The translations under genes were made by a program, and so were the position numbers. A DNA stretch of 64,000 nt from Acidobacteria bacterium Ga0077534. GTDB lineage: Bacteria; Acidobacteriota; Blastocatellia; Pyrinomonadales; Pyrinomonadaceae. The number at the start of each line of letters is the position of its first letter. Position 1 is the first letter of the stretch. The notes under the pieces were generated by a model that was not told the origin of the DNA, did not search any database, and saw nothing but the letters and a program-made list of their open reading frames with translations. This document shows positions 4,488-12,696 of the stretch, one piece after another. Where the stretch lies: positions 1 through 64,000 of the forward strand of contig LNEI01000001.1 in the NCBI GenBank assembly GCA_001464455.1, in the 5' to 3' direction.

Positions 4488-5006
4488 CTAATTTATCGCC
4501 GTCTTGACCCTAACCCGAGGCTGAGCACCTGACGGAGCCGACTGACTTTCGGCTGTGTTTACCTGACAATCTGCACAAACGCCCCACATTCGGAGGCTGT
4601 GATGAGTCGGCCTAAAGCCAAAGTTGCTTGCCATCTCATCCTGTAGGGCTTCTATATCTGGTGAAAAGAACTCGATCACGCGGCCGCACTCAGTGCAGAT
4701 CATGTGGTCATGGTGTTCGTGATTGTAATGATGCTCGTAGTAAGTCTTTCCGTCACCAAAACCAACCTCACGAGCCAAGCCAGCCTCTGTTAGAAGTTTG
4801 AGAGTGCGATAAACGGTCGTAAGTCCTACGCTCGGATCTTTCTTGTGAACTAACGAGTACAGATCCTCGCTCGTAAGATGATCTTCGGTTCCAAGGAATA
4901 TCTCCAGGATCAGATCACGTTGACTGGTCCTTCTCAATCCAGCTTTCTGGATATGTTCCAACAGGATCCCTTTCTCAACCTCAAATTTTGCCTTTTTTCT
5001 AACCAC
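4488..5006 (-). CDS. Fur-family metal-dependent transcriptional repressor
   Basis: A 172-residue Fur-family protein. The winged helix occupies about residues 15-85 ([15 protein letters not shown], then [17 protein letters not shown]). The metal region follows, with [11 protein letters not shown] at 91-101, and Cys104/Cys107 and Cys144/Cys147 give the structural zinc site. Such proteins bind operators as dimers when loaded with Fe2+, Zn2+ or Mn2+, or sense peroxide. The subtype (Fur, Zur or PerR) cannot be set from motifs alone. The start is GTG at 5006. After the second Cys pair there is a 25-residue tail. The neighbours give no clear iron or zinc operon, although Nramp-like and ZIP transporters lie in the same window. 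Confidence 0.9.
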
Positions 5007-5033: not shown

Positions 5034-5918
5034 CTACCATTTCAACTTAGATTTCGCTATCGATACTTTGGTTCGCATCGTTTCGATACGATCGTGGCTG
5101 ACACCCTGGCGGGCGGCAAGTTCAAGGGATTTTTCTCCGAGCAAAAGATATATCTCGAGTAGATCTTCGGAAACATTTTCATTCAGCGACGTTAAATGAC
5201 GTGTAAAAGTTTCGATGTCCGCCCGGGCAAAAGTCCCAGTGAGAGCAGCAGCCGAATCCTGTTCCGAGAGATTTTTAACGGTACTAATGACCAGAGGCAT
5301 GAGAATGCTCTTCGCGTCAGCGGGCGTGATGCCGCATTTCGTCATTATTTCGATGGCCGATTCGAAAAGAGCGACCAGATGGCCACATGCCGTGACCGCC
5401 GCGGCATGATAGAGAGTCTTGAACCGAGTATCGATCGAAAAGGGCGATCCACCGAGGCTGGTTACTATCTCCTTACCCGTTTCAACCGCCCTCTCCGTTC
5501 CCTCGACGCAAAAATATGAGCCCTCAAACCGCTCGCGTCCGAGTTCAGCATTGCTGATGGATACTAGCGGATGGATAGAACCAGTATCGCACCCCTTACG
5601 TGCAAGAGGGTCAAGTATAGAGGACGGATACGAACCGCTAGTGTGATAGACGAGGGGAGAATACTGGATCGCAGATGCTAGATCGCGAGCAACGTCGATG
5701 ATAAACGGATCCTGTGTCGTAATAAAGATGACATCGGTTGCGATTCTGCCAAGGTCGGCCGCCTTCAACACGACTGTTCCCGGGTCAAGCGATGAGATCC
5801 AAGACGGAGCAATATCATGCCGAATCACCAGACTTTCGACACGAAACTTTTCTCTAGGGAGACTTAATGCTAGGGCACCGCCTACACGGCCTGCACCGAT
5901 GATCGAAACACTCAACAT
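5034..5918 (-). CDS. Rossmann-like / DUF2520 domain protein
   Basis: A 294-residue protein beginning with a dinucleotide-binding fold (IIGAGRVGGALA, residues 6-17). Its body matches the paired Rossmann-like plus DUF2520 architecture related to ketopantoate and 6-phosphogluconate-type dehydrogenases. The later segment has the long helical pattern of the DUF2520 half (KTLYHAAAVTACGHLVALFE). Family members are probably NADP- or F420-dependent oxidoreductases of unknown substrate. Length is normal and the protein appears intact. It starts 48 nt downstream of the large ATPase gene on the same strand, so the two may share a transcript, but no functional link is known. Confidence 0.85.
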   Translation of the reverse strand: MLSVSIIGAGRVGGALALSLPREKFRVESLVIRHDIAPSWISSLDPGTVVLKAADLGRIATDVIFITTQDPFIIDVARDLASAIQYSPLVYHTSGSYPSSILDPLARKGCDTGSIHPLVSISNAELGRERFEGSYFCVEGTERAVETGKEIVTSLGGSPFSIDTRFKTLYHAAAVTACGHLVALFESAIEIMTKCGITPADAKSILMPLVISTVKNLSEQDSAAALTGTFARADIETFTRHLTSLNENVSEDLLEIYLLLGEKSLELAARQGVSHDRIETMRTKVSIAKSKLKW

Positions 5919-5966: not shown

Positions 5967-8900
5967 CTAGGCTTCGGTGTTCACGAACTCCTCGACCTTT
6001 TGCACCTCGGACTCCCAAAACTCGTCCTGATCACTAGTCCCGTCAAAATCACTAACTTCCGTCAGACTCTCAGTCGCCAGGTCTGCGATATCGAGGCTTT
6101 CAGCGGCCAATTTTAGGATCCGAATATCCTGTCCTGAAAGCACCGGCATATTATCGGTCGACATCGCCGTGATTATCTTCGAGAGCGAGCCTCGCATTGC
6201 GTCCGACTCTGCATTGTGCAAGAGAGCCTTCTCATTTTGCCTAAAAGCATCCCTAAACGCCCGGATACCATCGATAACAGTGGATTCAAGCTCCGCGGGC
6301 AATTGAAGGAGCCTCTCGGTTTCGGCTAGGCTAAAGGAGCAACCGCAGAACGGCCTCGTTTTTAAAACCGTACTTACATTAGCGGAGCAGTGAAGCTGGC
6401 GCATTTCCCGGATCAGCCTTCGGGCACGATCCAGGTAGGATCGATCAAGCCACAAAATTGCAGAAAGAGCTTCGAATGTCGACCACGCCTCAGATCGAAT
6501 TATTAACTTGAGCCCCTCTCCTGAAGGATCGGCTGTCATCACTTCATCATGGCGTTCGGCGTAATACGAAGTGTAGAGTTCCTTGAAATTTGTCCAAACC
6601 TCGATAAACTGATTACCTGCAGCATTGACCGCGTTGAAATTGCCAGCCTCGATCGCGTTGATTAGGCTGAGCTTGGAATTTTCAAGCACCTCGTCACCAG
6701 TGTTTTCGCACAGCGTCAGATACGTGCGTATATCGCCCCTCATCCTGACCCCCGCCGTAAAGTCGCGCAAAACGCGAAGATCGATCTTTTTTGCCTCGAA
6801 CTCAGACTCAGAATCGGAAAACAGGTCAGCTATTAGCTGTAAACATTGATCGAGCGACAGGTCATTCCTTATCAGCGAATCGATGAAATCAGCCATCGCT
6901 CCGAAGGATTTGCGGAGATTGGCTGCCGTCCTCCAGATGCTAGCATTGAGATCATCGTCAGGTAGTGCGTCAAAATCACTCAGTACCTTGCTCTGATTCC
7001 AACCTGTCAGCCATCCGCCTAGTGAATCGACGATCAACTCGCGGTCCTCGTTGCGGTCGATCGATTTTAAGGCGGCATTGCCGGTTATCAGCTTAGCCCA
7101 GATAAGCAGACGTGAGGAAGAATATTGCTCGTTCAGTGGCTTCGCCAGTCCAACAATGTCGTCCCAAATTATCTGTAGATCAAGCGAGCGATAATTTATT
7201 CGATTGCCGTTGGAGGTTACGAATTCATATAGCTTTTGAGCGACGAGCGCCCCCAAGACTACGTGTTGAGCGTCGCGTGTGAGTCCATACGGTTCCGCTG
7301 AGAGCGCCGCGGCTAAATCACTTAACGGGATCGCTCCATCCTGATTTAAGCCCGAGAACGCCGCCTTGATTAACGCGTGCTCGGCAAGCCTCTCGCCCGC
7401 GATCGGGACGATAGTATCGCCTGCCCTTTCGGCAAGTTGTAGCGGGACCGCAAATGTATCAGCAAGTCGCTGCGCTTCTGAACTTGTAGCTCCTGATCCG
7501 CTCAGAAAAGTAGCTATCAGCTCTGCGACCTGCTTGAAACCAAGAGTTTCCTTAAATTCGGGGTGCTCCGGATACGAAGAATCGAAAACTGGTGCTAGTG
7601 CCGCAGAGAGAATTTCGCTTAGTGAGTGCGCTGAGCGGCTTTCTTCGCTAAACTTGTGTGAGAAAGCCCCAACCGAAAGCACCGCGTCCCGGAAAAATAC
7701 CCGCGCCCACACCTTCTCAAGAGCGATGGAACTTACATGAAGAGCCGTCGCGAGTGATTCGCCGTGATGTTCGCGAACCTCGGGATCGTGCTGCAGGATA
7801 TAGTGTCGTTTGATCGCATTTGTCTCCTCGTCGGTAAGCGTCGCGATCTTCCAAACTGCTGTCGAATCCGTATCTCTTGTGGGTCGTTCCGATTCAGGTT
7901 CTATCGTGACCGTCCAGTCAGGCGTCTCCTTGCGATCACGAGTTCCGTCATCGCCCTCGGATGGTGGCCAAACTAGTTCACCTCGTCTAATACCACCGCG
8001 CCATTCGATGTTACAAAGAACCGTGCTCTCGGAGCCATCGAAATCTTTCCACTTTTCGGCACCTTGTGCGACGAGGCTTTTCCAGACCTGTTCCGACGGG
8101 ACCTTGGCACTTGCCGCAGACAGAATGGCTTCGAGATCGACCGTAGAACCGATCCTAAGACAATATTTGCTACCCGAACCGTCGCGTCCAGTCCGATCAA
8201 CGGCATTTGGCAGTGCCTCAAAAAATGATGCGAGTAGCGCTTCGACATTCAGTCCAGGCGTATCCACCGAGTCCGTCCCTACGATCATCATCGAAGCAGC
8301 GATCTCGTCGGCCGAAGTTCCCTGACCACTCAAGGAGAGCATCAGCAGGCCCTTAAGGATCAGCTTAGCCGGATGCCGGAATAAGACAGATGTTTTGCCG
8401 ATTACCTCGCGTTCAAGGTGATCAAATGCGTAGAAGGCATCTTCGAGGTCCGGCACGGATCTTAACTTCTGCTCTACGCTGTCGAAAACCTCGTCCAGCC
8501 CGATGAGCGAATTCGCGGGACGCCCGAGGATTTTCACACCGGCCTCTGCTGCAAACCCGAGCAAAGCAAAATCGTGTATATGTAGACGAATTAACGGGGC
8601 GATTTCGACCGTCGCCGGGTGAAGCGGATAAAGTGAGGTAAATCTCTGCTCGCTCCAGCGAAAACCAGGCATCTGCTGGCGGTAATCTTCGTAGATCTCA
8701 TGAAGCACGCCACGCATGTGGTTGTGCTTCGAAAATATTACGGATTCTACGATCTTATACAGGTGCTCTTGGTCGAGGTAGTCAATGGAGAAACTCCGCG
8801 ATATCGATGCATTCGGACCATCGGCTCCCGAAATATCGTCATCGAGCGCGACGCCTACGAAAACGCCGATCGCTTTTGCGGCCTCGGCGATCTCACTTAG

Positions 8901-9446
8901 CATCGCACCATCATCCCGAGAAACGCGGGTGTCGCGGCCTAACGCAGTGTCGATCAGGATCACAAGAGGCGTGTCGCCCGACTGATCTGAGACCCTAAGT
9001 AAAAGATCGTAGAGCGAATCGTTAAGCTCGTTAGGGTTTGTCTCGAGTATCGGGGCGACCGCTCGTTTCAACTCATCGATCAGCGACGTCCCCGAACCCC
9101 GGCGGACAAATGCCACATTTCCGTGACGACGCGAGAGCCTCTCGGCCGAAGAGGCAACGTGCGAATCCGATATTTTTGAACGTAATTCCGTCCGGGCAAC
9201 TATCGCGGACAGAACAGAAATGAAATGACTCTTACCTACTCCGCGAAAACCCGCCAGAGCCGACGCGTTTCCATGGCCCGAACGAACCCCCGCGATGCGA
9301 TCGATCCATTTGACCATCAGATCTGCCGTAATGTCCGTGAAATGGTAACCCGACAAAGTTAGCCCAGGATCCGCCGCAAAATCGTGTAGATGCGTGAACG
9401 GACAGATCTCGACTATGTCCTTAACCTTTTCTGACAAACGTTTCAT
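5967..9446 (-). CDS. Giant P-loop ATPase resembling BREX BrxC/PglY (DUF6079-like)
   Basis: An 1159-residue protein. The Walker A is GFRGVGKS (residues 66-73). The expected Walker B is LVILIDTALGRD (161-172), where the acid after Asp is Thr rather than the usual Glu. LYPLHPATVEIAPLI (272-286) is the Tyr-Pro-x-His-Pro signature shared by the large ATPases of BREX (BrxC, PglY) and DUF499-type proteins. The rest is long and helical. Near the C-terminus Cys1020, Cys1034 and Cys1036 (FCGC) sit where such proteins often have a small zinc-knuckle. In BREX these ATPases act with PglX methyltransferase and PglZ; none is present here, so this is either an orphan defence component or a repurposed ATPase. 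The ATG at 9446 lacks a strong ribosome-binding site. It is divergent from the M48 protease gene. Confidence 0.75.
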   Translation of the reverse strand: MKRLSEKVKDIVEICPFTHLHDFAADPGLTLSGYHFTDITADLMVKWIDRIAGVRSGHGNASALAGFRGVGKSHFISVLSAIVARTELRSKISDSHVASSAERLSRRHGNVAFVRRGSGTSLIDELKRAVAPILETNPNELNDSLYDLLLRVSDQSGDTPLVILIDTALGRDTRVSRDDGAMLSEIAEAAKAIGVFVGVALDDDISGADGPNASISRSFSIDYLDQEHLYKIVESVIFSKHNHMRGVLHEIYEDYRQQMPGFRWSEQRFTSLYPLHPATVEIAPLIRLHIHDFALLGFAAEAGVKILGRPANSLIGLDEVFDSVEQKLRSVPDLEDAFYAFDHLEREVIGKTSVLFRHPAKLILKGLLMLSLSGQGTSADEIAASMMIVGTDSVDTPGLNVEALLASFFEALPNAVDRTGRDGSGSKYCLRIGSTVDLEAILSAASAKVPSEQVWKSLVAQGAEKWKDFDGSESTVLCNIEWRGGIRRGELVWPPSEGDDGTRDRKETPDWTVTIEPESERPTRDTDSTAVWKIATLTDEETNAIKRHYILQHDPEVREHHGESLATALHVSSIALEKVWARVFFRDAVLSVGAFSHKFSEESRSAHSLSEILSAALAPVFDSSYPEHPEFKETLGFKQVAELIATFLSGSGATSSEAQRLADTFAVPLQLAERAGDTIVPIAGERLAEHALIKAAFSGLNQDGAIPLSDLAAALSAEPYGLTRDAQHVVLGALVAQKLYEFVTSNGNRINYRSLDLQIIWDDIVGLAKPLNEQYSSSRLLIWAKLITGNAALKSIDRNEDRELIVDSLGGWLTGWNQSKVLSDFDALPDDDLNASIWRTAANLRKSFGAMADFIDSLIRNDLSLDQCLQLIADLFSDSESEFEAKKIDLRVLRDFTAGVRMRGDIRTYLTLCENTGDEVLENSKLSLINAIEAGNFNAVNAAGNQFIEVWTNFKELYTSYYAERHDEVMTADPSGEGLKLIIRSEAWSTFEALSAILWLDRSYLDRARRLIREMRQLHCSANVSTVLKTRPFCGCSFSLAETERLLQLPAELESTVIDGIRAFRDAFRQNEKALLHNAESDAMRGSLSKIITAMSTDNMPVLSGQDIRILKLAAESLDIADLATESLTEVSDFDGTSDQDEFWESEVQKVEEFVNTEA

Positions 9447-9662
9447 CTACTTTCGGATATACGACGAAATAAAAGAAAACTGCTTCTTCTGTCGGAGCGT
9501 CTTAATAAGTAATTAGGGTAGTACTTTCAGTGCCAACCGATGGGCACAAAATATTTTAACAAGTTTTGTCACTAATTGAAATACAATTTTTACGGTGGCC
9601 TTGCTTAATTTTACAGGTGGTCTACGCGCAACTCTTTTGAGGGTATGAGCATCATAAATGCA

Positions 9663-9691
9663 TTGATTAGGACGGGCTTTAGGTCTACAAT
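9663..9691 (+). promoter_or_regulatory. Promoter of the M48 protease gene
   Basis: TTGATT (9663-9668), a 17-nt spacer and TACAAT (9686-9691) form a good vegetative-type promoter. The predicted start at about 9698 leaves a roughly 19-nt leader carrying TTGGAG (9705-9710), six bases before the ATG at 9717. The rest of the 270-nt divergent gap (9447-9662) is AT-rich with no clear feature. Confidence 0.55.
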
Positions 9692-9716
9692 CGTTTGAAA
9701 AGGTTTGGAGAATTTT

Positions 9717-10916
9717 ATGCAAAACGAATTTGGTCGTCGTGTTGGTGCCTCGATTTTTGCTTTCAGCCTACTGGTTGGAACGATTGGGGTTGTCCCTGCT
9801 GTTTCGATGGCACAAGCCTCTGGTTCTGATGACGCCAAAAAGGTCGCCAAGAACGACGGCGATATATCAAAAAAAGATAACAAGAAAAAGGATGCCAAAC
9901 CGGCTCCTACGCCATCGGGCCTCGGTGAAAAAGAAAATCCTGCCCTGATCGGTAAACGAAATATTAATGGCGGTACGGACAAGGTGTTTGGATGGTTCGG
10001 CGGCTCTAAGGAAAAAGAGATGCAGATCGGCCGTCAGCTTGCCCTAGAGGTTGAGCAGCAGGCAAAGATGGTTGACGATCCAGTCATCACCGAATACGTA
10101 AACCGTGTCGGCCAAAATGTCGTACTTCATTCAGATGCAAAGATCCCGTTCACGATCAAGGTCATCGACAGTGATGAGGTCAATGCATTTGCTCTTCCTG
10201 GCGGATTTTTCTTCGTAAATAAAGGGTTGATACTCGCTGCTGAGAATGAATCGGAACTCGCCGGAGTGATGGCCCACGAGATCGCACACGTCGCTGCAAG
10301 GCATGCGATGGAAAATCAGGGAAAAGGGGCTCTCCTTCAGTATGGAATGCTGGCCGGTATCCTTTTCGGCGGCGGTATCGCCAGCGGTATTCTGCAGAAC
10401 ACGGCTGGAATTACGCAGGCCCTCGCGTTCTTCAAATTTAGCCGCGGTGCTGAAGAAGAAGCTGACCGCTTAGGTGTACAGTATTTGTATGCTGCGGGAT
10501 ACGACCCAAACGGCATGTCGACAATGTTCGAGAAGCTCGCTTCGCAGAACAAGAAAAAGCCCGGAACCCTATCAAAGCTGTTTTCTTCGCATCCCCAATC
10601 GGTCGACCGACGAGACGCGAGCATCGCTCTGGTCGCCCGTTTTCCAGAAAAAGAAGAGTACATCATTAGCACATCTGAGTTTCAGCGAGTCAAAGGTCAT
10701 TTGATGAAGATCACTAACGCAAGAGCGGGGATCACAACTGACTTCGATTCGCCTGATGACAGCAAGCCGACGCTCAAGAAGCGGCAGGCCGAGGGTTCTG
10801 AGGCACCGACAATGGATGGCCAACCAGGATCTTCGACTTCGGATGGCCCACCCAAGCTGAAGAAACGCGATCAACCTGATCCGCAACCTACGCCGACCCA
10901 GTCGCCTCTTCAGTAA
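9717..10916 (+). CDS. Exported M48-family metalloprotease
   Basis: A 399-residue protein counted from ATG 9717; an upstream TTG at 9705 is really part of the ribosome-binding site TTGGAG. A signal peptide (hydrophobic core FAFSLLVGTIGVV, likely cut after VSMAQA) precedes a Lys/Asp-rich linker. The peptidase M48 domain carries the zinc helix HEIAH at about 187-191 and the third ligand in EEEADRLG at about 246-253. Family members such as BepA and LoiP degrade misassembled outer-membrane proteins in the periplasm. The C-terminal 60 residues are Pro/Ser/Thr-rich and contain LKKR twice. A BamD-like gene lies on the opposite strand beyond the terminator. The gene has its own promoter and terminator and is monocistronic. 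Confidence 0.9.
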   Translation: MQNEFGRRVGASIFAFSLLVGTIGVVPAVSMAQASGSDDAKKVAKNDGDISKKDNKKKDAKPAPTPSGLGEKENPALIGKRNINGGTDKVFGWFGGSKEKEMQIGRQLALEVEQQAKMVDDPVITEYVNRVGQNVVLHSDAKIPFTIKVIDSDEVNAFALPGGFFFVNKGLILAAENESELAGVMAHEIAHVAARHAMENQGKGALLQYGMLAGILFGGGIASGILQNTAGITQALAFFKFSRGAEEEADRLGVQYLYAAGYDPNGMSTMFEKLASQNKKKPGTLSKLFSSHPQSVDRRDASIALVARFPEKEEYIISTSEFQRVKGHLMKITNARAGITTDFDSPDDSKPTLKKRQAEGSEAPTMDGQPGSSTSDGPPKLKKRDQPDPQPTPTQSPLQ

Positions 10917-10935
10917 GAGAAGTAAATATAATAAC

Positions 10936-10970
10936 AGGCCGTCTCGATATGCGATTCGAGACGGCCTTTT
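10936..10970 (+). terminator. Rho-independent terminator after the M48 gene
   Basis: A perfect 12-bp stem (AGGCCGTCTCGA at 10936-10947 with its complement at 10956-10967), an 8-nt loop and a trailing TTTT. It starts 19 nt after the protease stop codon. Confidence 0.85.
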
Positions 10971-10982
10971 CGATTGTTATTC

Positions 10983-11089
10983 TAAGCTCGGTTATCGACA
11001 CGAAGGTCACGGCAACGGCGTGTTTAGCTGCGATCCCTCTGCTCCAAGCTAAGGCCGTTGGGATAATCACCCACAATTAACCGAGCTTA
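10983..11089. ncRNA. Candidate structured RNA or palindromic element
   Basis: Three nested perfect stems fold this 107-nt stretch into a rod. The outer stem is 12 bp (10983-10994 with 11078-11089), the middle is 7 bp (CAACGGC 11013-11019 with GCCGTTG 11054-11060) and the inner is 6 bp (TTAGCT 11024-11029 with AGCTAA 11047-11052) around a 17-nt loop. Unpaired strands of 18 and 17 nt make a large internal loop between the outer and middle stems. There is no coding frame. The pattern does not match tRNA, SRP RNA or tmRNA signatures I know, and it is shorter than 6S RNA. The strand cannot be decided, because every pair is Watson-Crick. A non-autonomous palindromic mobile element is the main alternative. 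Confidence 0.35.
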
Positions 11090-11099
11090 CAATCGAATA

Positions 11100-11125
11100 C
11101 GGGCGGCCTATTTCTAAGCCACCCG
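11100..11125 (-). terminator. Probable terminator after the BamD-like gene
   Basis: On the minus strand CGGGTGGC and GCCGCCCG pair over 8 bp with one G-U wobble, which would be an A-C mismatch on the plus strand, so the minus orientation is favoured. The loop is 10 nt. The following sequence TATTCGATTGT is only moderately T-rich. Confidence 0.4.
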
Positions 11126-11166
11126 AATTTGCATTTGCCTGAAGCTATTGATTACCAACCAATACG

Positions 11167-12696
11167 TTACTGCTTGATCGGGGGCTCCGCCTGAGGGACA
11201 ACTTTAGCCGCTGCGGGCACGACCTTGATAACTGTAGTTGGTGCCTGTGGTATCTGATTAACGAGAATGTCTCCCTGATTGTCGATGATCTGGTCGATCA
11301 GTTCGAACTTTTCCCGGTCGAAGTCCTTGCCCATGAGCACGCCATTTCGGTCGATGGTCATTGGGTATATCCCGAATAACTGATTCTTGAAATTCTGGAA
11401 GAAGGATACATTCTCAGGAGGCAGAACCTTCATCCTTTCTGGATTCGGGGCCGGGATCGTTGCGCCGATAAGTTCCAGCTGTTCAGTCGACTTCTTGACG
11501 TACTCGCTGTTCGGAAAATCGCTCACGATCCTCTGAAAATACCGGGCCGCCTGGTCAGTCTCTTCTTCGATCAGGTACGTAACGGCGAGCTTATAGAGGA
11601 CCTCATCTGTAAAATCAAAATCGGGGTACTTATCGATGATCTCGCGGTAACGAGACTGAGCTCCCTTTAGCCCTCCCTTTTTTTGCTCGACCGATTGCGC
11701 ATAGTAATAATTTGCGATCAAAAGATTATGAAGGCCAAGATTGTCCTGTACCTCTTTTAGGCGAAGCGATGCCTCAGTAGCGATGACTGGCTCCTTGTCT
11801 TTGCACTGCTGCAGAAGAGCCTTGAGGCGTGTTTCCGCACGCTTCGCACGCGTAGCGTCGCGGTCAGGCAAACCTACCTGTCTCATCTCTGCCTCGCCGA
11901 TCTTGAGTATCACGCGACATGAGAGCGGGTGGGTCGGGAAGAATGTCAGCCATTCCTGATACGCGCCAATAGCCTGAATAAGAGCGCTAGTCGAGCCTTC
12001 GAGATAAAACGAATCGCCCACGGCGAGCTTCGACATTGGCAAATATGGGGAATCCGGATAGGTCGTGATGATGGTCTGGAACAGCAGTCGACCGACATCG
12101 TAGTTCCTCTTTCTTACTTCGCGGGTGGCAACCACGAACAATTCTCTGTCGCGTCCCACCTGCACGCTGCCTAACAGTTCTTCGTATTCATCGCTTCCGC
12201 CGCCGCCGAAAATCCCAAGAAATTTCTTTTTCTTCTTCTTTTCGCGGGCCTGTCCGATGGTGGAAACCGGAGTTGCCCGAGTCGATGCGACCTCAAGTTG
12301 AGCCGTATCGGCCCGTGCTTGATATTCGTTGACCGCCTGCTCGAGCGTATCAAGATCGACCCTTTCGTACTTCTCGCCGCGATCGACTTTGCCACGGAGG
12401 CTATTGAGATCGGAACTCAGCCGTGAGCCGTCCTTCTCCAGAGAAACAAGTCGACCGAGAGGCGTATCGAGCTTTTTCTCGTCGTCCTTCTTGGCCTTGT
12501 CCTCCTTGTTCTCTTCCCTCAAAACCGATATGACACTGTTAAGTGACCGGCGCACCCGCTCGATCTTGTCACGCATGACTTCGAGGCGCTGAAGGTCCGT
12601 ACCGTCACCCGGCCGATTTTGACCAAACGCGGAAGAAAACCCCGATATTAGGATGACCAGCGACAAAAGAATAATTCGATTCTGTTTAAGCGACAT
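11167..12696 (-). CDS. BamD-like tetratricopeptide outer-membrane assembly protein
   Basis: 509 residues from ATG 12696, preceded by GGAATAG. A GTG start at 12750 would overlap rpe and add a non-signal extension, so it is rejected. A signal peptide (IILLSLVILISGFSSAFG) leads to a coiled, Lys/Asp-rich region (about 25-150), then TPR-type helices with the outer-membrane lipoprotein pattern (DSPYLPMSKLAVGDSFYLEG, later YPDFDFTDEVLYKLAVTYL and FPNSEYVKKSTEQL). No lipobox Cys is visible, unlike E. coli BamD. The role is inferred as part of the BAM machinery or a similar periplasmic scaffold. It is the last gene of the fmt-rsmB-rpe run, starting 34 nt after rpe ends. Confidence 0.78.
   Translation of the reverse strand: MSLKQNRIILLSLVILISGFSSAFGQNRPGDGTDLQRLEVMRDKIERVRRSLNSVISVLREENKEDKAKKDDEKKLDTPLGRLVSLEKDGSRLSSDLNSLRGKVDRGEKYERVDLDTLEQAVNEYQARADTAQLEVASTRATPVSTIGQAREKKKKKKFLGIFGGGGSDEYEELLGSVQVGRDRELFVVATREVRKRNYDVGRLLFQTIITTYPDSPYLPMSKLAVGDSFYLEGSTSALIQAIGAYQEWLTFFPTHPLSCRVILKIGEAEMRQVGLPDRDATRAKRAETRLKALLQQCKDKEPVIATEASLRLKEVQDNLGLHNLLIANYYYAQSVEQKKGGLKGAQSRYREIIDKYPDFDFTDEVLYKLAVTYLIEEETDQAARYFQRIVSDFPNSEYVKKSTEQLELIGATIPAPNPERMKVLPPENVSFFQNFKNQLFGIYPMTIDRNGVLMGKDFDREKFELIDQIIDNQGDILVNQIPQAPTTVIKVVPAAAKVVPQAEPPIKQ

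Follow-up and report, generated by a model that had tools for sequence, protein, structure and literature searches.

The closest described relatives of the protein considered here are the BrxC and PglY ATPases of BREX (bacteriophage exclusion) systems, which have been treated as components of defence. In type I BREX, BrxC binds DNA and oligomerises on it. Its contacts with ATP involve K326/R330, R430 and the Walker B residue E269, whose replacement by Gln (E269Q) lowers ATPase activity and stabilises ATP-dependent dimers; the C-terminal part is unresolved in the solved dimer (PMC13326643). The C-terminal architecture of BREX BrxC/PglY proteins comprises an alpha+beta domain, a second winged helix-turn-helix and a coiled-coil C-terminus, and BrxC/DUF6079 and DUF499 proteins are set in defence contexts, a small fraction of unassigned hits having been discarded (PMC12839542; both papers are cited for the parts of their text covered here). 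Those parts of PMC12839542 make no mention of a core lineage and the word Acidobacter is absent from its main text; the literature on BrxC, PglY, DUF6079 and DUF2520 likewise gave, at listing level, no account of a core BrxC-like lineage. Here we describe an ATPase encoded in a stretch of 64,000 nucleotides from Acidobacteria bacterium Ga0077534 (GCA_001464455.1, contig LNEI01000001.1, positions 1 to 64,000; hereafter the window), which is a member of the BrxC/PglY superfamily but belongs to a core, chromosomal branch that lacks the catalytic Walker B glutamate. A housekeeping branch of this kind would depart from the view of BrxC/PglY as defence components.

Relationship to BrxC and PglY

The gene occupies positions 5967–9446 on the minus strand, starts with ATG, and encodes a BrxC/PglY-like (DUF6079) AAA+ protein of 1159 amino acid residues; all of its motifs are given on that strand, which we add to a preliminary description whose motifs and protein length are all present. 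The Walker A motif GFRGVGKS (residues 66–73; 9228–9251) includes Lys72 and Arg68, as placed by alignment, and the Walker B motif VILIDT (residues 162–167; 8946–8963) has Asp166 followed by Thr167, within LIDTALGRD (164–172). An acidic triplet, Asp202–204 (8835–8843), ends the strand after Walker B and probably lies in the sensor-1 region, and the LYPLHPATVE motif (residues 272–281; 8604–8633) is common to the defence-type relatives. The model has mixed strands at residues 475–534 and a helical C-terminus. The source genome (4.2 Mb, 32 contigs) carries a single copy of the ATPase when searched with the protein itself.

Kinship with BrxC and PglY, proposed in the preliminary description, is established by both profile and fold. 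The Pfam match of the whole protein is not to an unrelated family but to DUF6079 itself (PF19557; 48.1 bits, E 4.4e-13, gathering cut-off 23), and this match is shared by 32 of 33 aligned homologues. In a six-frame search of the genome, DUF6079 matches fall only inside the ATPase open reading frame (ORF), where single stretches score 18.3 bits, below the cut-off. The BrxC-PglY models of PADLOC also match (best E 5.7e-12), and its SspC model matches residues 30–106 weakly (E 9e-5); the NCBIfam model NF033441 (BREX_BrxC) reaches 14.7 bits where its cut-off is 400, AAA_16 matches below threshold only, and DUF499 is not among the Pfam matches at E 0.1, a search in which HMMER filters may hide weak ones.

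The full-length structural model (predicted local distance difference test, pLDDT, 83.3; predicted template modelling score, pTM, 0.52) was compared with solved structures using VIA-align. Residues 6–431 match the BrxC N-terminus (1–551), with Z 20.6 to 9zll_D over 395 residues at a root mean square deviation of 4.9 and Z 20.2 to 9zdx_C over 395–396 residues, and the winged-helix segment aligns with that of BrxC; the next fold family, ORC/Cdc6, follows at Z 13.2 and below. A profile search of the PDB places BrxC 9zll at the top, though only at E 0.034, and single-sequence PDB searches gave no match either with the ATPase or with the defence-type relative L084. The viral structure library returned only general AAA+ matches. 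The DUF6079 score, the full-length homologues and the BrxC fold exclude a chance match to BrxC/PglY.

Active site of the core branch

The active site was aligned across 55 core-branch members and, from the same phylum, 12 defence-type proteins resembling DUF6079 or DUF499. All 67 retain the Walker A lysine (Lys72) and the Walker B aspartate (Asp166), and the glutamate that follows (column 167) is present in 12/12 defence-type proteins and in 0/55 of the core branch, with the caveat that the defence-type labels were assigned partly after Walker B had been seen and partly from weak profile scores. In its place the core branch has Thr (32), Asp (9), Gly (8), Ser (3) or Asn (3). The Walker B without glutamate, noted earlier for this one protein, is thus a trait of the whole branch and not peculiar to the window copy. 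Other columns differ as well: column 68 in Walker A is Arg in 48/55 core proteins versus Tyr or Phe in 12/12 defence-type proteins, column 202 is Asp in 43/55 versus Gln in 12/12, and column 218 is non-basic in at least 47/55 (3 Lys, 2 gaps) versus Arg or Lys in 12/12. Near this last column, to be compared with K326/R330, the arginine-finger residues of BrxC, the window ATPase has Ser218 but Arg217, and the local alignment is uncertain. By analogy with the E269Q protein, the core branch would resemble the glutamate-less, ATP-held state of BrxC. Of the copies left aside, L031–L033 (copies of L057, L035 and L058) are omitted from the alignment of homologues, and the broken or cut L072 and L073 from alignment A1.

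Among the six defence-type loci whose neighbours were inspected, L084 and L085 carry PglX, L120 carries PglZ and L126 carries both, and L118 and L121 have no BREX partner among the neighbour proteins tested. We also observe that L121, L124, L125 and L128 share a divergent neighbour of about 320 residues, with N-termini that look alike by eye; that of L121 has no PADLOC match.

The C-terminal Cys/His domain

The all-helical C-terminal domain (residues 768–1159; 5970–7145, minus strand) contains Cys1020, Cys1034 and Cys1036 (6339–6389), which together with His966 (6549–6551) probably form a metal-binding site. All four residues are conserved in at least 90% of 33 aligned homologues, and they are kept in 50–51 of the 55 core-branch and 9–10 of the 12 defence-type proteins, so that the site is family-wide. 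Modelled alone, the domain is helical (pLDDT 89.6, pTM 0.77), with no Foldseek match at E 0.001 and a best PDB match of Z 6.4 over 65 residues.

Distribution and inheritance

The ATPase is a core, vertically inherited chromosomal gene without BREX partners. It was found in 33/36 genomes of the genus, in 98/147 genomes of the class (G051 and G071 by defence-type matches only) and in 33/199 genomes of the phylum, and the core branch spans several families as well as other classes of the phylum. Some genus copies are broken or misassembled, since those of G006, G023 and G024 are in two pieces and that of G005 is truncated by the end of a contig; the G023 copy (L072:4642-8299) is split into two ORFs of 841 and 367 residues, by a frameshift or an assembly error. 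Distances between ATPases correlate with the distances for seven flanking genes (Spearman 0.27–0.55, with 0–5 of 500 permutations as high). The plasmid, phage and IMG/VR collections gave no match to the ATPase, the last being scanned with short conserved patterns.

The preliminary description held that the gene stands without PglZ, a methyltransferase, Lon or a helicase. For PglZ this extends to the whole source genome, where none is found at E 0.001, and elsewhere in the class PglZ is above its cut-off in 8/144 genomes and never on the contig of the ATPase. For PglX, Lon-type BrxL and helicases it holds among the nine window proteins compared with Pfam, no genome-wide search for these having been made. 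Homologues sitting in complete BREX loci were also looked for, and members of the core branch do not sit in them.

Neighbouring genes and the DUF2520 link

The neighbours are as first described, a DUF2520 protein and an M48 peptidase. The DUF2520 gene (5034–5918, minus strand; Rossmann-like and DUF2520 domains, Pfam E 3.6e-32) lies 48 bp downstream of the ATPase and is followed by a Fur family regulator (4488–5006, minus strand), and the conserved M48 gene (9705–10916, plus strand; E 1.5e-31) is divergent from the ATPase, with an intergenic region at 9447–9704. The order M48, ATPase, DUF2520 is fixed in 27/27 genus loci (the window and L034–L059), with Fur called next in 23 of them and hidden elsewhere by ORF picks on the opposite strand. 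An A/T-rich 10-mer, TGTTAAAATA, occurs with one mismatch allowed in 18/27 ATPase-M48 intergenic regions versus 7 in single-base shuffles, relatedness not being controlled; promoter and terminator scans stayed at shuffle level.

A survey of the ATPase-DUF2520 pair, suggested in the preliminary description, bears out its conservation but not its necessity. DUF2520 is directly downstream in 72/78 class genomes with both genes, the other six having them on different contigs; within the genus, 35/35 other ATPase-bearing genomes also show DUF2520, and three genomes without the ATPase are also without DUF2520. However, each gene is found without the other. DUF2520 occurs without the ATPase in 28 class genomes, and at 8/11 of the DUF2520-only loci fetched (L096–L102, L106) M48 and DUF2520 adjoin directly with no ATPase between them. 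Conversely, on a 96-genome list, from which G051 and G071 are omitted as having defence-type matches only, 18 genomes have the ATPase without a DUF2520 match, of which at most 15 count once G144–G146 are set aside, and five such genomes belong to family f3 among the matches listed. The pair is therefore old and neither gene needs the other, and DUF2520 was rejected as an obligate partner on the strength of the DUF2520-only loci and the f3 ATPases. We had presumed the DUF2520 protein to be a PanG-type ketopantoate reductase, an idea that the PDB matches 2i76 and 3d1l left unsettled and that was dropped.

Relatives beside penicillin-binding proteins

In other families the ATPase has a different neighbour, PBP1, a penicillin-binding protein of class A in which Pfam recognises transglycosylase and transpeptidase domains. 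In family f24, in which 4/4 genomes match, PBP1 is upstream on the same strand at a spacing of 1 bp or less in all four loci (L076, L077, L078, L080), and in family f34 (9/15 genomes match) it is upstream on the same strand in 9/9 loci, directly next at 10–218 bp in seven of them and with an 80-residue ORF call between in L081. L078, L080 and L083 supplied the sequences for the PBP1 profile and so match it by construction; Pfam confirms these three. The f34 copies form a decay series, in which L081 is whole, L083 (7630–10077, plus strand) is an intermediate with a recognisable AAA+ region from which the P-loop has gone, L111 and L112 are without the AAA+ part, and L082, L110, L113, L114 and L115 retain little but the C-terminal domain. 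The AAA+ part is thus ruined or lost in 8/9 f34 copies while the C-terminal domain stays. Shortening is also seen in genus g31, where the ATPase has 953–1044 residues (L090, L107, L108).

In families f24 and f40 the gene directly after the ATPase encodes a protein of about 190–200 residues whose start is signal-like; the proteins from L078 (7174–7770), L080 (4149–4757) and L079 (11052–11612) are homologous (E 4e-55 to 3e-12) and have no Pfam match at E 0.01. A SurA-type gene adjoins L065. The neighbours of other relatives look like ordinary chromosomal genes, with MutS, UvrA, PyrF and TyrS read by eye. L061, a paralogue in family f8 (7911–11627, plus strand), has a response-regulator receiver domain at residues 839–950 and is without the Cys/His site, and a gene that by eye is PyrF-like overlaps its end. 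L094 (7995–14156, plus strand) is a core-branch member of 2053 residues whose C-terminal half has no Pfam match at E 0.01.

Possible functions of the ATPase

We think it fairly likely, judging from sequence and models, that the window protein is a domesticated BrxC-like scaffold or switch that binds ATP and is impaired in hydrolysing it, the core branch of this AAA+ family having been recruited to a cellular role in Acidobacteriota. Such a role is likelier than one in defence because of the vertical inheritance, the lack of BREX partners and the altered ATP-splitting residues, and the domesticated ATPase that the preliminary description had listed among its options is supported. The protein would bind ATP and hydrolyse it poorly or not at all, and so would act as a nucleotide-set scaffold or switch; like BrxC, it may assemble into dimers or into rings on DNA, and its C-terminal domain would carry the binding function. 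More speculatively, it may have a role at the cell envelope, given that its gene lies behind that of a class A PBP in two distant families and next to M48 or SurA-type genes in other members. The fullest form of this idea, which we offer tentatively and as doubtful in its entirety, is a housekeeping sister lineage of the BREX ATPase that is ATP-locked and links the cytoplasm either with the synthesis of peptidoglycan by a class A PBP or with quality control of the envelope, docking through its Cys/His domain; defence BrxC may share its origin.

Several observations weigh against the scaffold and its envelope role. PBP1 is neither a neighbour in the genus of the window nor in L079 of family f40, it is about 2.3 kb away in L114 of f34, and the adjacency to M48 may reflect nothing more than synteny. 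Several genera of the same family have no ATPase gene, and the protein evolves fast (median identity 0.39, as for DUF2520, versus 0.65–0.69 for M48, Fur, YfiO, Nramp and Rpe), which is often a trait of defence genes. Only 4/12 defence-type proteins are confirmed beside PglX or PglZ, and the single branch that separates them from the 55 core proteins has a Shimodaira-Hasegawa-like approximate likelihood ratio (SH-aLRT) of 94, just below the starred level, in a midpoint-rooted tree of residues 5–431 that was made by a quick method and includes long branches, among them L081 and L120/L126 (L122, with no true match once aligned, and L127, of 253 residues at a contig end, are omitted). The chief point against a dead ATPase is column 203, which is acidic in both groups (Glu in 10/12 defence-type, Asp or Glu in 49/55 core-branch proteins), so that another acid could catalyse. 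With Walker A Lys and Walker B Asp invariant, the protein might accordingly be an active ATPase that uses an unusual catalytic acid among Asp202–204 and serves as an ORC/Cdc6-type loader or organiser of DNA on the chromosome, ORC/Cdc6 being the next fold after BrxC and BrxC itself binding DNA and oligomerising there (PMC13326643, in the parts covered). We consider this possible but unlikely, as the Walker B Glu is lost in 55/55 and the Arg/Lys of column 218 in most of the branch, and the f34 copies dispense with the AAA+ part and keep the C-terminal domain.

Readings that tie the gene to defence or regulation appear weaker still. That it is a one-gene anti-phage system, or a two-gene system with DUF2520 as the preliminary description suggested, would agree with the PADLOC BrxC match, the DUF2520 gene next downstream and the fast evolution of both genes, but the ATPase belongs to the core of its genus, where its synteny is conserved, and has no match in the plasmid, phage or IMG/VR collections, the DUF2520 link is not obligate, and the distances of the two proteins are barely correlated (Spearman 0.17, 31 of 500 permutations as high); we regard such a system as improbable. 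Slightly less probable again is a nucleotide-dependent regulator of signalling or transcription with no envelope role, whose winged helices would bind DNA and whose C-terminal domain would take the input. The BrxC-aligned winged-helix segment, the receiver domain of the L061 paralogue and the intergenic 10-mer are in keeping with it; the window ATPase has no typical regulator domain in Pfam, and the C-terminal-only copies beside PBP1 are without the winged-helix part. Least probable of all is a left-over BrxC from a BREX system whose remaining genes were lost, for while the kinship and the rarity of PglZ in the class would suit a relic, the gene is intact and its place conserved in most genomes of the genus, the branch carries its own residues, absent from defence-type proteins, and it is old enough to span several families and other classes. 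Having kept the scaffold without the catalytic Glu, the core branch offers a natural experiment on which functions of BrxC depend on hydrolysis. Because defence-finding models match the core branch, counts of BREX may wrongly include core genes.

Comparison with known systems

The window ATPase is most like BrxC of Acinetobacter type I BREX (9zll, 9zdx, 9zn5; PMC13326643, in the parts covered), sharing the AAA+ and winged-helix N-terminus, the size and the GxxGxGKSHFL type of Walker A, and differs from it in having Thr167 where BrxC has E269, with no PglZ in its genome and no PglX among the nine window proteins. The PglY-type DUF6079 proteins of BREX loci (L084, L085) have the DUF6079 match, an LYPLHP-like motif and the C-terminal Cys/His site in common with it, but L084 scores 1924.6 bits on DUF6079 versus 48.1 for the window ATPase, and both have Walker B Asp-Glu, a P-loop Tyr where the core branch has Arg, and a PglX neighbour. 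Resemblance to SspC, of phosphorothioation-linked defence, is confined to a profile match weaker than those of the BrxC models, and Ssp partners were neither seen nor sought. The ORC/Cdc6 AAA+ proteins provide the next-best fold, but are without the giant C-terminal half of the window ATPase and without the N-terminal fit that it shares specifically with BrxC.

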